Shown one piece after another: positions 7,044-18,739 of a DNA stretch of 36,156 nt. The stretch covers positions 1 through 36,156 of the forward strand of contig QIAU01000172.1 of assembly GCA_003225055.1 (NCBI GenBank). The letters are read 5' to 3'. The notes below the pieces were generated by a model, which ran no database searches, had not been told where the DNA came from, and was given only the letters and a program-made list of their open reading frames with translations. Position 1 is the stretch's first letter. Each line of letters opens with the position of its first letter. The translations under genes and the position numbers were made by a program. This stretch comes from Acidobacteriota bacterium. GTDB taxonomy: Bacteria > Acidobacteriota > Terriglobia > Terriglobales > Acidobacteriaceae.

Positions 7044-8714
7044 TTACCCGGCATGTTCTAGATCCACGTGCTCGGGTCTTAGACCGATCGTTTGCAGCAG
7101 CCTATTGGTCTTGTTGATGTAGTCCTCGACTGCCTGCTGCATTTGCGTTCGAGACCAATCCAGTTCCTGCGCAAGATACGAACCGACAACCGGCGCGGCC
7201 TTGATCGCAAGCCTCCAGTCGAAAAGCTGCAGGCCAATGCGCCGGGCTAGAATGTCCCCGATGGTCATGGCCATCTCCTGACGGATGCTGTAGACGATTT
7301 CTGCCTGGATGGGAGCCAGACCTTCGACCAGAGGCGAGGCGAGGTGAGAGTTCTGTTTTGCGAGATCAAGAATCTTTTTGGCGCCAGCGCCAAATTTTTC
7401 CGAAAGATGTCGAGTGGTACCTGGTGAAACGCGATATCCAGTCGCCAAAGCCTCCCCGAAGCCAGGTGTCCAGCCTTGGGAACCGCTGAGTGGATGATGG
7501 CGCGTTATGCACTTTGCTACCGAGCCTCCAAGGTACTGCTGAACAGCGTTCGTCGCGTCTTCAGCCATCGCGCGATAGGTGGTCCACTTGCCTCCAAGCA
7601 CGCTTATGAGTCCAGTGCCCTTGTCGAGTTCGACCTCATGATCGCGGATCAGCTTTTTGGTGTTGCGCGCCCCAGCGGAACTTACCAGTGGCCGTAGGCC
7701 CGCAAATCCACTGACGATCTGGTCCGTTGTGAGCGGCTTAGCAAGATAACGGTTTAGGTGCCGAAGCAAGTACTCCGCTTCCTCGCGCTTGACAACCATC
7801 TCATCCTGGAGAGTTGCTTCGTCGTCTGTCGTACCCACTAGAAGTCTGTCCAGCCACGGAATGGCGAAGATAACTCGTCCGTCATCGGTCTTTGGGATGA
7901 GCAGCGCGTCGCCGTTGCAAAACCCCTCAACCGGAAGAAGGATATGGACCCCCTTGGTTGGCCGCAGCCTTTGCTCGATGCCAGGCGAGGCAAGTTGGCG
8001 AATGCTGTCGGAAAATGGTCCAGTAGCGTTGACGAATGCTCGAGCACGCACGGTGAGGCGCCGATGGGAGATTCGGTCCTGTACCTGCGCCGCCATGAGC
8101 CTGCCGTCTGAAGCTTTTTCAAATCCCACGATGCGTGCATAGTTGAGCGCCTCACCGCCGCATTCCGTCAAGGTTTGAATGAGCGCTATGTCGTACCGGG
8201 CGTCGTCGAACTGGCCGTCGGCGTACGCGACGCTCCCGACCAGACCTTCGGGCTTGAGCGCGGGGATCCGCCTGATTGATTCTTCGCGAGAAACATATCG
8301 GCTGGGAAAGAGCAGGCTCTTGCCCGAAATCCAGTCATATAGCTTCATTCCTATCCGGTAATACAAAACCTCGTAGTTGCTGAAGCATGGAACCAGGAGT
8401 TCTAGCGGCTTGGCGAGGTACGGAGCATTGTGCAGCATGAGCTTGCGCTCACGCAGAGCTCGTCTTACGACATGATACTGACCTACGTCCAACTCAGCGA
8501 TCGCCTGCCGCAGGTACCGCACGCCTCCGTGGACGAGTTTGGTGGAGGCGCTAGAAGTCGCGGAGGCGAAGTCCCCCGCGTCAAACAGGACTGTCTTTAG
8601 GCCACGCAGCTGTGCATCCAAGGCGCAGCCTGCCCCTGTAGCGCCTCCGCCAATGACACATACGTCGAATGTTTCACTTTCAATTCTTGACAGCGCGATG
8701 GAGCGAGTTCTCAT
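7044..8714 (-). CDS. glpD: Aerobic glycerol-3-phosphate dehydrogenase (FAD)
   Basis: 556 residues. The FAD-binding Rossmann motif is near the N-terminus (VCVIGGGATGAGCALDA), followed by SSASTKLVHGGVRYLRQ, typical for GlpD/GlpA-type enzymes. The oxidase core (FVNATGPFSDSIR, LVGTTDDE, GFAGLRPLV, GGKWTTYR) and the C-terminal domain are present. It oxidises glycerol-3-phosphate to dihydroxyacetone phosphate at the inner membrane and passes electrons to quinones. The start MRTRSIALSRIESETFDV is 33 bp after the reconstructed end of the porin gene. With GlpK and GlpF it forms a complete glycerol uptake and oxidation route. Confidence 0.96.
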   Translation of the reverse strand: MRTRSIALSRIESETFDVCVIGGGATGAGCALDAQLRGLKTVLFDAGDFASATSSASTKLVHGGVRYLRQAIAELDVGQYHVVRRALRERKLMLHNAPYLAKPLELLVPCFSNYEVLYYRIGMKLYDWISGKSLLFPSRYVSREESIRRIPALKPEGLVGSVAYADGQFDDARYDIALIQTLTECGGEALNYARIVGFEKASDGRLMAAQVQDRISHRRLTVRARAFVNATGPFSDSIRQLASPGIEQRLRPTKGVHILLPVEGFCNGDALLIPKTDDGRVIFAIPWLDRLLVGTTDDEATLQDEMVVKREEAEYLLRHLNRYLAKPLTTDQIVSGFAGLRPLVSSAGARNTKKLIRDHEVELDKGTGLISVLGGKWTTYRAMAEDATNAVQQYLGGSVAKCITRHHPLSGSQGWTPGFGEALATGYRVSPGTTRHLSEKFGAGAKKILDLAKQNSHLASPLVEGLAPIQAEIVYSIRQEMAMTIGDILARRIGLQLFDWRLAIKAAPVVGSYLAQELDWSRTQMQQAVEDYINKTNRLLQTIGLRPEHVDLEHAG

Positions 8715-8747
8715 AAGGGTTTGTCCGCTCGCTTGCAGGTATGCATC

Positions 8748-10237
8748 TCAGAACCCGATCACGTTCCGAAAACCAAGGGCAACTGCGTTCCCTTGACGCC
8801 GAGCACCTAGATCCACCCAGTACTGAACCACCGGCTGCACCGTCAACCAGGGAGTCGCCTGCGCGCGATAGCTCTGAAGTCGAACGCCGTTTCCCCCTTG
8901 CCGATGTTCACTCCTTGAAGGGCCTGCACCCGCCGAAACTCATCGCTCACCCGGTTGTATACGAACCCAAGAGCCGCGGCGTCGTCGCCACGGTTCGGAA
9001 TCAGACCGTTGTAGCCGAAACCTCCGGTAATCTCAGAGTTGACCTGATTGACGTCGTCAGGACTCCAATCGAATCCGAAGTGCACATCTAAACCGCGCTT
9101 CGAGCCAGCCTCTGCGCGATACACCGCCTGGTCAGCCATGCCATAGACCAGATAGTTGCCGACCCCGACTTCCTGGTTACGCAAATCCTTAAACTCTCCG
9201 TGATTGTAAAGTGAGCCGAACTTGTAGAGACCCGGGTAGTTCTTCTCATCCTTTGGCGCCGGCTTGATCCGACCGGGAAGGGGCGCATAGGCTCCTTGGG
9301 AAAGCTCGGGCGAGTCGACAACAAAACCGACTTCTGAGGCTTCTACCGGCGTGTTGAAGATGTCGAAGTGGACACCCGTTGCGTCATCGAACGGGTTTCG
9401 ATTTCCCGAGAAAATCGCGGTCCTAAAGTTAAAATTGTGCGTTGGCCACACGCGGACTTCTGCTGCTGGAACTCCGGCAGGATCAAACGGGGAGAAAACG
9501 GCGCTGAACTCGTTCCCAAAGGCAAAGCCAAGCGGTTCCAGCAGGTGCTCTTCAAGGTTTTGCTGCCCCCCATAGTTGTCTTGGGCGCCCCACTGGCCAA
9601 GCTTCAAGAACAGCCTGTTGTCGAAGAGCGCCTGCTCGAACCAGAACGCATCCAACCGGGCCGTCTGCTTGCTAGCAAGGCTGCTAGGGTTGGCAATGCT
9701 GCCCAGAGTTTGGCCGCCGACGTTTACTCCCCCCTGCCAAGGGCCGGTGGCGAAAAAACTGAGGCCCTTGAGCGGAGTAAACTTTCCGAAATCGATTAGC
9801 AGGTTGCCGCGGGTGCGTTCCCATCCATTGCCTCCATTGACGCTACGCGGAGTGTGCACGGTGCCTATGAAGTCGGCGCTGTACATAAGCTGAAGAGTGA
9901 CCCCCTTATCTTCTATCTTCTATCTTCTATCTTCTATCTTCTATCTTCTATCTTCTATCTTCTATCTTCTATCTTCCATCTTCTATCTTCCATCTTCCGT
10001 CTTCGTCCGGAAGCCGCCCCAATCACCGGTGAAGTGTTTCTGAGTTCCAAGTTTTTCGAGACTGGATCGGGGCGCATCCGAGTCACCCTTCGAGTCTGCG
10101 TCTTGCCCCAAGGCCAAGACAGACACGCAGAGCAGGGAAAGCAGCAGGAATCCAAGCAAGTGCCTGGCGCGATGGGGACAAACTCCTGGGTCCTTAAATG
10201 ACCTATGCGCCTTGGTGTGCACCGTGTGTTCCGTCAT
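8748..10237 (-). pseudogene. OprB-type carbohydrate porin, interrupted by a heptanucleotide array and a 3' frameshift
   Basis: ATG 10237 has an AGGAG ribosome site and opens MTEHTVHTKAHRSFKD followed by a hydrophobic signal segment (LLGFLLLSLLCVSVLALG) and the OprB hallmark HFTGDWGGFRTK. There a 7-bp repeat array (9908-9998) brings in stop codons. Behind it, in the same frame, the protein resumes: KGVTLQLMYSADFIG, then long beta-barrel sequence to about 8875, where one base is gained or lost. The true C-terminus is in the next frame: SYRAQATPWLTVQPVVQYWV and finally VALGFRNVIGF, ending with the Phe typical of outer-membrane proteins (stop 8748-8750). OprB porins admit sugars through the outer membrane. 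The gene leads the glpDKF operon, 33 bp before glpD, suggesting a former role in glycerol or sugar uptake. Confidence 0.85.
9908..9998. repeat. 13-copy heptanucleotide tandem array inside the porin gene
   Basis: Plus-strand unit ATCTTCT: nine perfect copies (9908-9970), then ATCTTCC, ATCTTCT, ATCTTCC, ATCTTCC. A degenerate GTCTTCG follows. In the porin's direction the unit reads AGAAGAT or GGAAGAT. AGAAGAT copies give an in-frame TAG every 21 bp, whereas GGAAGAT copies give TGG. The first and last GAAGAT are 84 bp apart (12 units, 28 codons), so reading frames on either side agree. Array expansion from a single GAAGAT seed (Glu-Asp before KGVT) explains the arrangement. Confidence 0.95.
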
Positions 10238-10267
10238 GCCATTTCTCCTCTCCAGCGTATTTGCAGG

Positions 10268-10310
10268 AAAAAAGCCCAAGACGGGCGCACTTATAGCGTT
10301 CGTCTTGGGC
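10268..10310 (-). terminator. Intrinsic terminator (or leader attenuator) before the porin-glp operon
   Basis: GCCCAAGACG (10274-10283) and CGTCTTGGGC (10301-10310) form a perfect 10-bp stem with a 17-base loop; on the minus strand the stem is followed by six T (10273-10268). It ends only about 30 bases before the porin ATG at 10237. It can be the terminator of whatever gene lay upstream, or a conditional terminator in the leader of the glycerol operon. I recognise no riboswitch class upstream of it. Confidence 0.75.
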
Positions 10311-10363
10311 GGTTTCTCTAGCCTCTCTACCCGTGCGACGGCCTGCATACTACCTGGCGCGAC

Positions 10364-10375
10364 AGAAATATTTCT
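10364..10375. promoter_or_regulatory. 12-bp perfect palindrome upstream of the porin-glp leader
   Basis: AGAAATATTTCT is a perfect palindrome in AT-rich sequence, upstream of the terminator hairpin. It could be an operator or part of a promoter region of the glycerol operon. No convincing -35/-10 pair could be placed with it, so the function is open. Confidence 0.3.
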
Positions 10376-10731
10376 AACAATTCTTAGTTCGGATTCGCTC
10401 ATGTGACCCAGAACTTAGAATCGCTGACTGAAATGGATCGCACACCCTGGGGGAACCAGATCTTCGATCTCACGCGCGGTCCGCACCAGTCTCCAACAAG
10501 TACCGGCAGCTCCAGGCCAACTACCTGTAACTCGCTAACAATTAACGGCGCCACGACTGCTGGGAGCACCTCAAGCACCTCCGGCACAAAATGCTCGAGG
10601 GCGCGGCGAGCTCTTCAAGGCAGCCGAATCGAGCAGGAACGTGCGTTCGATGGAGAAAAGTCCTTGGGCGCGTGCGGCTCCGAGCCGCTCGGAATGCGTC
10701 GAACTAAGCCCTGCACTCTTCGCCTGGCCGG

Positions 10732-11055
10732 TTACGAAACAGTGACAGGTTCGCGGGCAAAACCTGCGACGAGATCGTGATTGACGATAGGCACCTTGCC
10801 ATTCGACACAACTTGTTCGGTCATTGCCGGGATATTCTCGGGAGTTCCGCACCAAAGATCCGCACCAAAAAAAGACAATCTTGCCCGGTGCCGACAGCGC
10901 CGCCATAAGCATTTCAAGCATCCGCACGGCCGGAATGATGGGCCGTCTCGTCCAGAAGCTGGAACGGCTTTTCTGAACCACGACCAGTTCACGCTGCGCC
11001 GGGTGTACGTCTGCTCTGTGCTGCCAACACCGTGGTGCTGTTCTATTGAACCCAT
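10732..11055 (-). CDS. Unrecognised small open frame, probably a decayed gene
   Basis: From ATG 11055, behind a GAGGA ribosome site, 107 codons read MGSIEQHHGVGSTEQT at the start and GADLWCGTPENIPAMTEQVV then GKVPIVNHDLVAGFARE near the end. The last 45 residues look like genuine protein, while residues 20-55 are Arg/Cys-rich and look out of frame; a second frame over that part gives AVRMLEMLMAALSAPGKIVF, which fits better. I therefore suspect one or two frameshifts in an older gene. A faint likeness of the DLWCGTPEN ... GKVPIVN pattern to EIIA-mannose PTS domains is too weak to name it. The region 10403-10730 beyond it holds nothing I can assign. Confidence 0.3.
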   Translation of the reverse strand: MGSIEQHHGVGSTEQTYTRRSVNWSWFRKAVPASGRDGPSFRPCGCLKCLWRRCRHRARLSFFGADLWCGTPENIPAMTEQVVSNGKVPIVNHDLVAGFAREPVTVS

Positions 11056-11096
11056 AAATTTCCTCATTTTGTGAACCCATAAAATTTCCTCATTTT
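11048..11096. repeat. Tandem duplication (about 24 bp) containing ribosome site and ATG
   Basis: GAACCCATAAATTTCCTCATT and the almost identical GAACCCATAAAATTTCCTCA copy lie side by side (11048-11070 and 11073-11096), differing by one A. On the minus strand each copy reads GAGGAAATTTATGGGTTC or GAGGAAATTTTATGGGTTC, a ribosome site and start codon for the open frame starting at 11055. Confidence 0.85.
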
Positions 11097-11266
11097 CGAT
11101 GCATGGCGCGATGCTCAAGTTGACTTGCGAGCGGAGTGTGGCCGTTTGCTAGAGATTCAGTGATTCAGACTGGCAAGTACGGTGTTTACCCGATATTCCA
11201 TTTGACGTCACTTACTCGAATGAAAGTGAGCCGACCTCCAAGACAAAATTCAGTGGAAGGCGGAAC

Positions 11267-11410
11267 CTGAGGTGTACCCTCCTCGCTCACCGTCAGCTTC
11301 CCCTTTTCCAGCACGCCCGCCCTCAGCCATCTCTGAATGAGCCGCACGACGCGCCAGTTCCCAATCCGGTGCTCGACAACTTGACCAGCCAGTTCTGCGA
11401 CAAAGTGTGA
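11267..11410 (-). pseudogene. Group II intron reverse transcriptase/maturase fragment
   Basis: The minus strand encodes FVAELAGQVVEHRIGNWRVV followed by RLIQRWLRAGVLEKGK and SEEGTPQ. This is the palm region of group II intron-encoded reverse transcriptases (consensus MLEHRIGDRRILRLIRKWL ... EEGTPQG), just before the catalytic YADD block. After GTPQ the frame is lost and the following sequence is degenerate; upstream domains are missing as well. No intron RNA domain V was recognised nearby. It is a scrap of about 48 codons left from an inactivated intron. Confidence 0.7.
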
Positions 11411-11479
11411 ACGACCCCACGACACTACCCACCACAAAGACTTGCGAGAGCATGTCACTATCACTCGCTCGCACCATCC

Positions 11480-11716
11480 GTTTGACTGGGAGGGCATTGG
11501 CTGTCTTTGGGCGATGGCGTTACCAGGGCAAGTTACATCTGATCGTAATTTTGCCGAATGGAAGTCGCTCTCTGATGCCTACCGAGTGGACTGATTTCGA
11601 TTCTTGCGCACTCTGTTCGCCTGCTGAATCGACACAGAACACTAATCTCGGTTCCGTTAAAGACTTGCTTCGCGCGCGTTGTCGTAGACGCTCTCCTCAA
11701 CCGCCGCTCCACATAG
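11480..11716 (+). pseudogene. DUF5372-like fragment at the head of a degenerate recombinase module
   Basis: The plus strand reads ALAVFGRWRYQGKLHLIVIL, PNGSRSLMPTEWTDF, then after a frame change VVVDALLNRRST ending in TAG at 11714. The pattern (short beta-rich domain ending in PxEWTDF, then a short helical tail) is what I remember from DUF5372-like proteins that precede small proteins and tyrosine recombinases in soil bacteria. The assignment rests on memory of that arrangement and on the neighbours to the right; it could be chance. Confidence 0.3.
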
Positions 11717-11758
11717 GTGGCGAGGCGGCGAAAAATCTGTCCGCGAGGAGAGCGCACA

Positions 11759-11917
11759 TTGCAGCGCAATCTGAACTTTCTCGACATCCCCATTCCGGAA
11801 ACCCAAGCGTGGGAAACGCTGGAGAACGAGCACAGAACGGTGGTGAGCGAAGTTCTGGCGCGACTGATCGCCAAGGCAACACCGGCCGATCCAAGACCGC
11901 AGGAAGACCATGATTGA
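11759..11917 (+). CDS. Small helical protein of a recombinase module
   Basis: A 52-codon gene beginning with TTG at 11759, with GAGGAGAG as ribosome site six bases upstream. It reads MQRNLNFLDIPIPETQAWET and LARLIAKA, an acidic, helical small protein of unknown function. Its TGA overlaps by eight bases the ATG (11910) of the recombinase relic that follows, the classic coupling of two genes of one mobile module. The frame itself is intact, although its partner is destroyed, so it probably no longer serves a purpose. Confidence 0.5.
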   Translation: MQRNLNFLDIPIPETQAWETLENEHRTVVSEVLARLIAKATPADPRPQEDHD

Positions 11918-12291
11918 TATCGCCAAAGTAAAGTCCTGGCGCGAAGAATGGCAGGCGGGGCGTCCTGGATTTTCCCAGCTCCGCGCAAGCCAGGCCAGCA
12001 CATCGGCCGATTGAATAATGCACACGACGCTATCTGCGAGAGAGCTGAGCTCGCATTCGTTCTCTATGTTTGCGCCACACCTTCGCAACGCACATGGCCG
12101 AAGCCGGCATTGACCTGGCGACGCTGGCAGCCATCCTTGGACACGGCTCAATACGGATCGTGCAGCGCTACGTGCATCCGACGGCCGATCACAAGCGCGT
12201 GGCGATGCTGAAGTATGCGGAAACGATGAGGCGGCTCGAGCTCGCAACCCTGCAGTTCGCTTTGCAAGAGAACAACGGGAGAGTCAATTGA
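11910..12291 (+). pseudogene. Tyrosine recombinase with its central part deleted
   Basis: The N-terminal scrap MIDIAKVKSWREEWQAGRPG continues to a stop at 12014. From about 12067 the catalytic C-terminus follows in another frame: LRHTFATHMAEAGIDLATLA, then AILGHGSIRIVQRYVH with the active-site Tyr in RYVH, then a helical tail ending QENNGRVN. The segments containing the first catalytic Arg and the His of HxxR are gone, so the enzyme is dead. Roughly 200 residues are missing between the two pieces. It belongs with the small overlapping gene before it and perhaps the DUF5372-like fragment, forming a degenerate integration module beside the tRNA genes. Confidence 0.75.
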
Positions 12292-12825: not shown

Positions 12826-13450
12826 TCACTGGTCCCGCATTAGGTCCCGTTTTTCCGTACTCCCCTCTTCCCAGTCGCCTAGCGAGGTCCCGTTCGGCAG
12901 GGAACGCTCGATGAATTGCGCTTGAGCCTTTCTCGCCTTGGGGCTGTTGTGCACATAGTGCATCGTCATGTCCACATGCGACTGGCGAAGCATGCGCTGC
13001 ACAACCACCGGGTCCTGTCCGTTGTCGATCAGGAACGTCGAAAGACCGTGTCGCAGGTTGTGGAACCCGAACCGCGGACAACCTTCCGGGATCACTCCGG
13101 CAGCGACCGCTGCAGGTCGAATGTAGTCCTGCGCGATCATGCTGCCGAGCCGGGGTTGCTTGCCATGCAACTTGAAGGACGGGAACACAAAATCCGAGTC
13201 CGTGCTGTACGGAGTTTCCTGACGCCAGCCCTGCAACAGGGCCGCAATAGTCTCGTGCATCTCGACTGCCGCCTTGGAAGCCCGTGACTTTGGACGCCCG
13301 AGTTGGCCGTGAACCCAATCACGCCGGATGTTGATCTTCAGTTTCTTCCAATCAATATCCGACCACGTCAAGCCTAGTGCCTCCCCGATGCGAATCGCAG
13401 TAACCCCGCTACCAAGATCACGAGCACCCGTACCAAAGGTTCTGTGCCGC
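12826..13450 (-). pseudogene. Phage-type tyrosine integrase, catalytic domain only, frameshifted
   Basis: The main frame reads TAIRIGEALGLTWSDIDWKK (contains the first catalytic Arg), FGFHNLRHGLSTFLI (HxxR box), and MLRQSHVDMTMHYVH (late His and the nucleophilic Tyr), ending MRDQ. Upstream the sequence VLSGTEPLVRVLVILVAG is in another frame, so an indel lies near 13410. The N-terminal core-binding and arm-binding domains are missing. Such enzymes integrate genomic islands into tRNA genes, and this one lies next to tRNA-Gly, but in the unusual place (5' side of the tRNA), so the two may not be functionally linked. Confidence 0.8.
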
Positions 13451-17848: not shown

Positions 17849-18739
17849 ATGGCAAAAACCGCAAGGCTTAGTGCGGCACTGCTGACTCTCGTCTGTCTCT
17901 GGTGCCGGGGGGCGCAGGTGCCTGCGCCGGAGTCGCTCGAAGCGCTGCGGAAGCGTGCCGAGAAAGGCAGCCCGGAGGCCCAGACGGCCTTGGGCACGAT
18001 GTACCGCAACGGTCAGGGCGTACCTCAGGACCTGGGCGAGGCCGTGCGGTGGTTCCGCCAGGCGGCCGTCCAGGGCTACGCCGCGGCCGAGAATAGCCTC
18101 GGGTTCCTCTACGACTACGGTGGGGGAGTTCCCATAGACCACCAGGAAGCGGCCGGCTGGTACCGCCAGGCGGCCGTGCAGGGCTATGCTGAGGCACAGC
18201 TCAACCTGGGCTGGCTTTACGACAGCGGTCAGGGCTTTCCAATTGACCACGCTGAGGCGGCGCGCTGGTACCGCAAGGCGGCCGAGCAGGGGAATGCCGA
18301 CGCGGCGTTCGACCTGGGGGTGATGTACGAGGAAGCGCAAGGCGTCGCGCAGGATTACGTCGACGCCGCCCGCTGGTACCGCAGGGCTGCAGACCAGGGG
18401 ATGCACATTGCTCAGCTTAGCCTGGGCCGAATGTACGCCAGCGGCCGCGGCGTGGCCCGCGATCGGGCTGAGGCCGCCCGCTGGTACCGTAAAGCCGCGG
18501 ACCTGGGCCTCGCCTCCGCGCAGTACGCGTTGAGCCTGGCATATTCCAGCGGCCTGGGCGTGCCCCCAGACCAGGTGGCGGCATACGAGTGGATGGACCT
18601 GGCCGTCTTTCGCGCGCGTGGGCCGATCCGCGAAAAATACTCCGCTGCGCGCGATGCACTGACCGCCGGAATGACCCCCGAACAATTGGCCGAGGCGAGG
18701 CGCCGAGCCGGCGAGTGGAAGACGAAATGGCCGCACTGA
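17849..18739 (+). CDS. Exported Sel1-repeat (TPR-like) protein
   Basis: 296 residues with a signal peptide (MAKTARLSAALLTLVCLWC). Six consecutive 36-residue Sel1-like repeats follow, each with the pattern AxxxLGxxYxxGxGVxxDxxEAxxWYRxAAxQG, for example AEAQLNLGWLYDSGQGFPID and AQLSLGRMYASGRGVARDRA. A short C-terminal helical tail ends EWKTKWPH. Sel1 proteins build alpha/alpha solenoids and act as protein-interaction scaffolds in the periplasm or outside. No partner can be read from the context, since both neighbours are relics. The repeats are similar but not identical, so recent expansion is not suggested. Confidence 0.9.
   Translation: MAKTARLSAALLTLVCLWCRGAQVPAPESLEALRKRAEKGSPEAQTALGTMYRNGQGVPQDLGEAVRWFRQAAVQGYAAAENSLGFLYDYGGGVPIDHQEAAGWYRQAAVQGYAEAQLNLGWLYDSGQGFPIDHAEAARWYRKAAEQGNADAAFDLGVMYEEAQGVAQDYVDAARWYRRAADQGMHIAQLSLGRMYASGRGVARDRAEAARWYRKAADLGLASAQYALSLAYSSGLGVPPDQVAAYEWMDLAVFRARGPIREKYSAARDALTAGMTPEQLAEARRRAGEWKTKWPH

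Follow-up and report, generated by a model that had tools for sequence, protein, structure and literature searches.

A heptanucleotide array in an OprB-type porin pseudogene ahead of glpD, glpK and glpF in an acidobacterial draft genome: very probably a lesion and not a switch

Gene order and features of the locus

The window, i.e. the whole stretch of 36,156 bp that was analysed, is the entire contig C162, one of 301 contigs in the 7.41-Mb draft genome of an Acidobacteriota bacterium. On the minus strand it carries, in reading order, a glpP-like stretch, a hairpin, a porin gene, glpD, glpK and glpF, in agreement with a first-pass annotation of the sequence, which had placed the porin at the head of a glycerol operon with the order porin-glpD-glpK-glpF. 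The features are as follows (positions in the window):

10408..10939, minus strand: glpP-type glycerol-3-phosphate antiterminator pseudogene, its pieces falling by turns in frames -3 and -1
10268..10310, minus strand: leader terminator-like hairpin (10310-10274; -24.5 kcal/mol), with a tract of six T behind it (10273-10268)
8751..10237, minus strand: OprB-type porin pseudogene with the array (PF04966; ATG at 10237, native C-terminus at 8751)
9998..10004, minus strand: degenerate unit GAAGACG, sharing six of seven letters with GAAGATG, directly 5' of the array (read from the sequence)
9907..9997, minus strand: heptamer array of 13 units with four in-frame TAG codons, inside the porin pseudogene
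8873..8879, minus strand: second porin lesion, where homology shifts from frame -3 to frame -2 (alignment to the intact paralogue)
7044..8714, minus strand: glpD, open, 556 aa
5506..7005, minus strand: glpK, open, 499 aa
4695..5474, minus strand: glpF (MIP channel), open, 259 aa

The porin gene and its relatives

The porin matches the OprB carbohydrate-selective porin profile at 100.8 bits against a cut-off of 22.9, and its C-terminal OprB piece was scored as a separate profile match. The gene is not open from the signal peptide to the C-terminal strand, being interrupted by the stops of the array and by a frameshift towards its 3' end. An open paralogue is found on contig C6 of the same genome (G000:C6; stretch L015, 180-1906) and is 46.6% identical over 337 residues (48% in the similarity search). 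Aligned to the array porin, it follows one frame to residue 413 with a single 28-residue gap at the array, the equivalent of twelve 7-bp units. The first-pass annotation had reckoned twelve extra units as 84 bp or 28 codons, with the frame kept, and the gap has exactly this length; its 3' frameshift was likewise recovered, as the match to the paralogue moves to another frame within 8879-8873. It is very probable that the array is a lesion and not a switch, and that the gene, now a pseudogene, carries at least one further lesion. The earlier suggestion that the repeat had killed the gene is partly right, since there are several lesions, of which the array need not have been the first.

Behind the C6 porin lies a truncated glpD that matches residues 2-41 only, and the C6 locus, with an open porin and a truncated glpD, thus mirrors the array locus, with a dead porin and an open glpD. 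A third OprB match in this genome (G000:C98, 163421-164290) contains an internal stop, and glpK fragments lacking the middle of the gene are present at L229 9971-10558, also on C98; both are further remnants of these two kinds of gene.

Porin relatives were detected in 11 of the 396 genomes of a phylum sample, the own genome included, the best match outside it reaching 37% identity; the genus mate G001 gave no match to the array porin. The first-pass annotation had asked whether related porins carry one to three units. The motif WGG.R was found in three of 11 OprB loci (C6, G394 and G107), all of them with one-unit spacing, the other eight being uninformative as the motif was not found in them. 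None of the queried glp genes was found within the 14-16 kb around the porin relative in G387, G394 and G099.

Structure of the heptamer array

Tandem Repeats Finder (TRF) delimited an array with a 7-bp unit at 9907-9997 on the minus strand, counting 13.0 copies with 96% matches and a score of 168, as expected from the thirteen units counted in the first-pass annotation. When the window was shuffled 100 times with its dinucleotide composition kept, scores reached at most 39 at period 7 and 66 at any period, so that the array far exceeds chance, as would be expected of a heptanucleotide long simple sequence repeat. On the gene strand the units read GAAGATG GAAGATA GAAGATG (GAAGATA)x10. The stop-bearing GAAGATA accounts for 11 of the 13 units and GAAGATG for two, both near the 5' end; as had been noted before, one unit type (GAAGATA) gives rise to TAG and the other (GAAGATG) to TGG. 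The ten identical GAAGATA units suggest recent growth of the array. The array is 91 bp long and the porin reading frame is identical on either side of it.

The array stands alone in the part of the genome that was searched for repeats (1,185,135 bases in 81 stretches including the window, about 16%), where the next best score at periods 3-11 is 69. A search of the whole genome with three units of the array heptamer returned 11 overlapping matches, all of them within 9907-9997.

Assemblers may miscount arrays about read length. The unit count comes from a draft assembly of 301 contigs and may be inexact for a 91-bp array, which raises the question whether the array or the frameshifts stem from faulty assembly or sequencing. 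Both flanks of the array belong to the same gene, however, several long adjoining ORFs are open, a wrong unit count would still leave stops, and glpP carries several frame changes of its own; an artefact therefore appears very remote as an explanation.

Copy number and the porin reading frame

The array has several traits of a phase-variable locus. It is long and mostly perfect, it lies in the 5' part of a gene for a surface protein, its 13 units share the frame class of one unit, and heptanucleotide switches do exist. In the excerpt of PMC13001214, neuO of the Escherichia coli K1 prophage CUS-3 carries AAGACTC repeats in its 5' coding region and is switched on at repeat numbers that are multiples of three; in that of PMC8262952, ATCTTTC repeats in the promoter region of hmw1A and hmw2A of Haemophilus influenzae control the transcription of surface proteins. 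One of the readings offered in the first-pass annotation was a contingency locus that happened to be off; in such a locus, slippage would toggle the porin.

This reading was confronted with modelled arrays, comprising every contiguous-block deletion of the real array, among them those that leave 2-12 units, plus prefixes and extensions covering 2-60 units. In all arrays of between 2 and 60 units the first stop fell at codon 85 (codon 92 in a 12-unit case; codons counted from one), because GAAGATA, when repeated, carries TAG in all three frames; repeated GAAGATG carries none, and its unit is stop-free in all six frames. With zero units the first stop was at codon 94, out of frame. One unit was the only modelled copy number that restored the native porin frame, as the first-pass annotation had predicted for a contraction to a single unit, but the porin so obtained would not be normal: its frame runs to codon 437 and ends out of step with the native C-terminus, owing to the second lesion at 8879-8873. 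As all arrays of 2-60 units stop at codon 85 or 92, slippage by a single unit does not turn the porin on. Neighbouring copy numbers thus do not alternate between on and off, and the gene is not otherwise intact, given the separate frameshift at 8879-8873. On account of the copy-number model and the second lesion the phase-variation reading was rejected; with a dead glpP neighbour and no such array in the 395 other genomes of the phylum sample, an active translational contingency locus is highly unlikely. It had also been proposed that polarity on glpDKF could vary with the array, an idea that loses its basis as the stop position hardly moves with copy number, so that variable polarity on these genes would not be expected.

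The porin array is built of heptanucleotides and lies, as does that of neuO, within the 5' coding part of its gene (PMC13001214, in part), but the neuO unit AAGACTC is stop-free on the coding strand, whereas the main porin unit has TAG in every frame and the gene has a second lesion. With hmw1A and hmw2A it shares a heptamer of similar base make-up and a surface protein gene (PMC8262952, in part), but their repeats lie in the promoter and the porin array in the coding region.

A former switch might nevertheless have been locked. If the array had once consisted of the stop-free GAAGATG, it would have toggled the porin at every third copy, and the spread of GAAGATA by slippage would then have fixed the porin in the off state. 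A hypothetical all-GAAGATG array is open at 1, 4, 7, 10, 13 ... units, and the present number is 13, a one-in-three coincidence; two GAAGATG units are also left at the 5' end. Against this, none of the 395 other genomes of the phylum sample has an array of this heptamer, 11 of the 13 units bear stops, and a two-unit seed accounts for both unit types without a former switch. Such a relic is considered improbable.

The glpP pseudogene and the leader hairpin

Positions 10939-10408 are matched, in pieces of alternating frame, by GlpP proteins of three family genomes, encoded at four loci (two in G074, one each in G009 and G167). The best pieces follow the order -3, -1, -3, -1, corresponding to about three frame changes; in the match of one G074 copy (L286) the N-terminal piece is absent. 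In Pfam searches the pieces covering positions 28-63, 70-108 and 109-145 gave E values of 0.0072, 2.6e-6 and 0.071, respectively. The middle piece alone stands well, and the weakness of the other two counts against the overall reading of the locus. The pseudogene is the sole match to PF04309 in its genome, and a match is present in 4 of 80 family genomes, including this one. Three of the four intact glpP loci adjoin glp genes, lying before glpK-glpD-glpF (L285), directly before glpD (L288) or divergent from glpD (L287), and none of the queried glp genes occurs within the stretch of the fourth (L286). Upstream of the pseudogene, a 26-bp AT-rich unit is present twice in tandem at 11047-11096.

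The leader hairpin, a predicted terminator, is far more stable than expected (z -5.47), with none of 200 shuffles as good. In Bacillus subtilis, leader terminators of this sort are disrupted by GlpP once it has bound glycerol-3-phosphate (PMC9604022, in part). The present locus shares with the B. subtilis GlpP/glpD leader antitermination system of that excerpt a glpP-type gene, a terminator-like leader hairpin and glp genes in a row, and the hairpin with its T-tract beside glpP is what a GlpP-controlled glp operon would be expected to show. It departs from this system in that glpP is not intact, its pieces lying in alternating frames, and in that a dead porin separates the leader from glpD.

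G167 has a comparable hairpin (-26.4 kcal/mol), its tail rich in T, between the intact glpP and glpD, and a long inverted repeat followed by T's lies between glpP and glpK of G074 (L285), outside the hits of the 42-base scan. The best hairpins by glpD of G009 and by glpK of G394 reached -15.4 and -18.0 kcal/mol, respectively, and the scan found none by glpK of G387 or before the C6 porin; the latter result and the lack of a strong hairpin by the G009 glpD argue against the leader reading. Rfam gave no match in 8000-12000, and no promoter was found in 8650-10500 by a scan confined to sigma-70-like promoters, of which 0.5 would be expected there by chance, so that this negative carries little weight.

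A dead antiterminator and an apparently standing leader terminator have probably left the operon head mostly shut. A point against a silenced operon is that glpD, glpK and glpF are still open, which would not be long preserved if silent.

Origin of the array

Taken together, the array has in all likelihood arisen in place, by replication-slippage expansion inside the OprB porin gene, as one of at least two lesions in a pseudogene. Slippage would have started from a pair of adjoining, imperfect heptamers within the coding sequence of a one-unit porin, GAAGACG and then GAAGATA, an adequate seed; the best match outside the genome, at 37% identity, is too distant to show the ancestral letters. With the antiterminator dead and the leader terminator in place, the operon head was probably little transcribed, and a second porin may have made the loss tolerable, such that slippage would have gone unchecked by selection. 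The locus can thus be seen as a snapshot of operon-head decay, with a dead antiterminator, a leader terminator apparently standing, a dead porin and open metabolic genes behind.

A heptamer array within a gene can resemble a phase-variation switch and yet be a lesion. Three checks help to tell the two apart, namely whether the unit is stop-free in all frames, whether the rest of the gene is intact and whether the neighbours are alive.

Recurrence of the heptamer and known heptamer repeats

Among the long repeats of prokaryotes, heptanucleotide repeats are reported to be the most abundant class in most genomes, and polymerase slippage has been proposed to cause them (Mrazek et al. 2007, as reported in the excerpts of PMC4692102 and PMC4679880). 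The porin array resembles these 7-nt long simple sequence repeats, as portrayed there, in being tandem, far beyond chance and attributable to slippage, and differs from them in general by occupying a single locus that lies within a gene, the sampled part of the genome being otherwise poor in long repeats of short units. Slippage arrays with units of seven bases are already known as a class from bacteria, and the porin array is of the ordinary kind. A literature search of titles and abstract openings, with most subscription journals outside its coverage, returned no description of this array or unit.

A scan of genome contigs turned up arrays of at least four GAAGATR units in at least 115 stretches, spread over many phyla (L016-L130), which could suggest a dispersed functional element, regulatory or mobile, common to many bacteria. 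Within the stretches listed, 123 arrays consist of four or more exact units, of which 34 are all-GAAGATA, 73 all-GAAGATG and 16 mixed. In viral contigs, GAAGATA was found in 5 stretches as compared with 6 and 1 for scrambled units, and GAAGATG in 4 as compared with 3 and 7. As the numbers are low and this control covered viral contigs, a modest excess is possible. A special cross-phylum heptamer was rejected, the units being not clearly commoner than scrambled ones in these small counts. The backwards control of the own-genome and phylum searches is not independent, because reversed GAAGATA is a rotation of GAAGATA. The likeliest reading is that the recurrence of GAAGATR across phyla reflects the size of the collections.

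Dispersed heptamers are on record for Xanthomonas (GGGAATC) and Nostoc (GGGGAYT) in the excerpt of PMC4692102, and for Beggiatoaceae (TAACTGA) in that of PMC4679880. The porin array has tandem 7-bp units in common with these, as described there, but they occupy many places per genome and the GAAGATR array occurs once in its own. A dispersed family would show many arrays per genome or lineage; here, four or more units of the array heptamer were found in none of the 395 other genomes of the phylum sample, i.e. in one of 396. A dispersed element is thus hardly credible.

Other features of the window

A minus-strand ORF at 12826-13371 shows a partial match to a phage integrase (PF00589, profile positions 44-170 of 172) and is possibly a remnant. 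At 18050-18291, a 108-bp repeat (36 codons) lies inside a Sel1-repeat protein gene on the plus strand (17849-18739).
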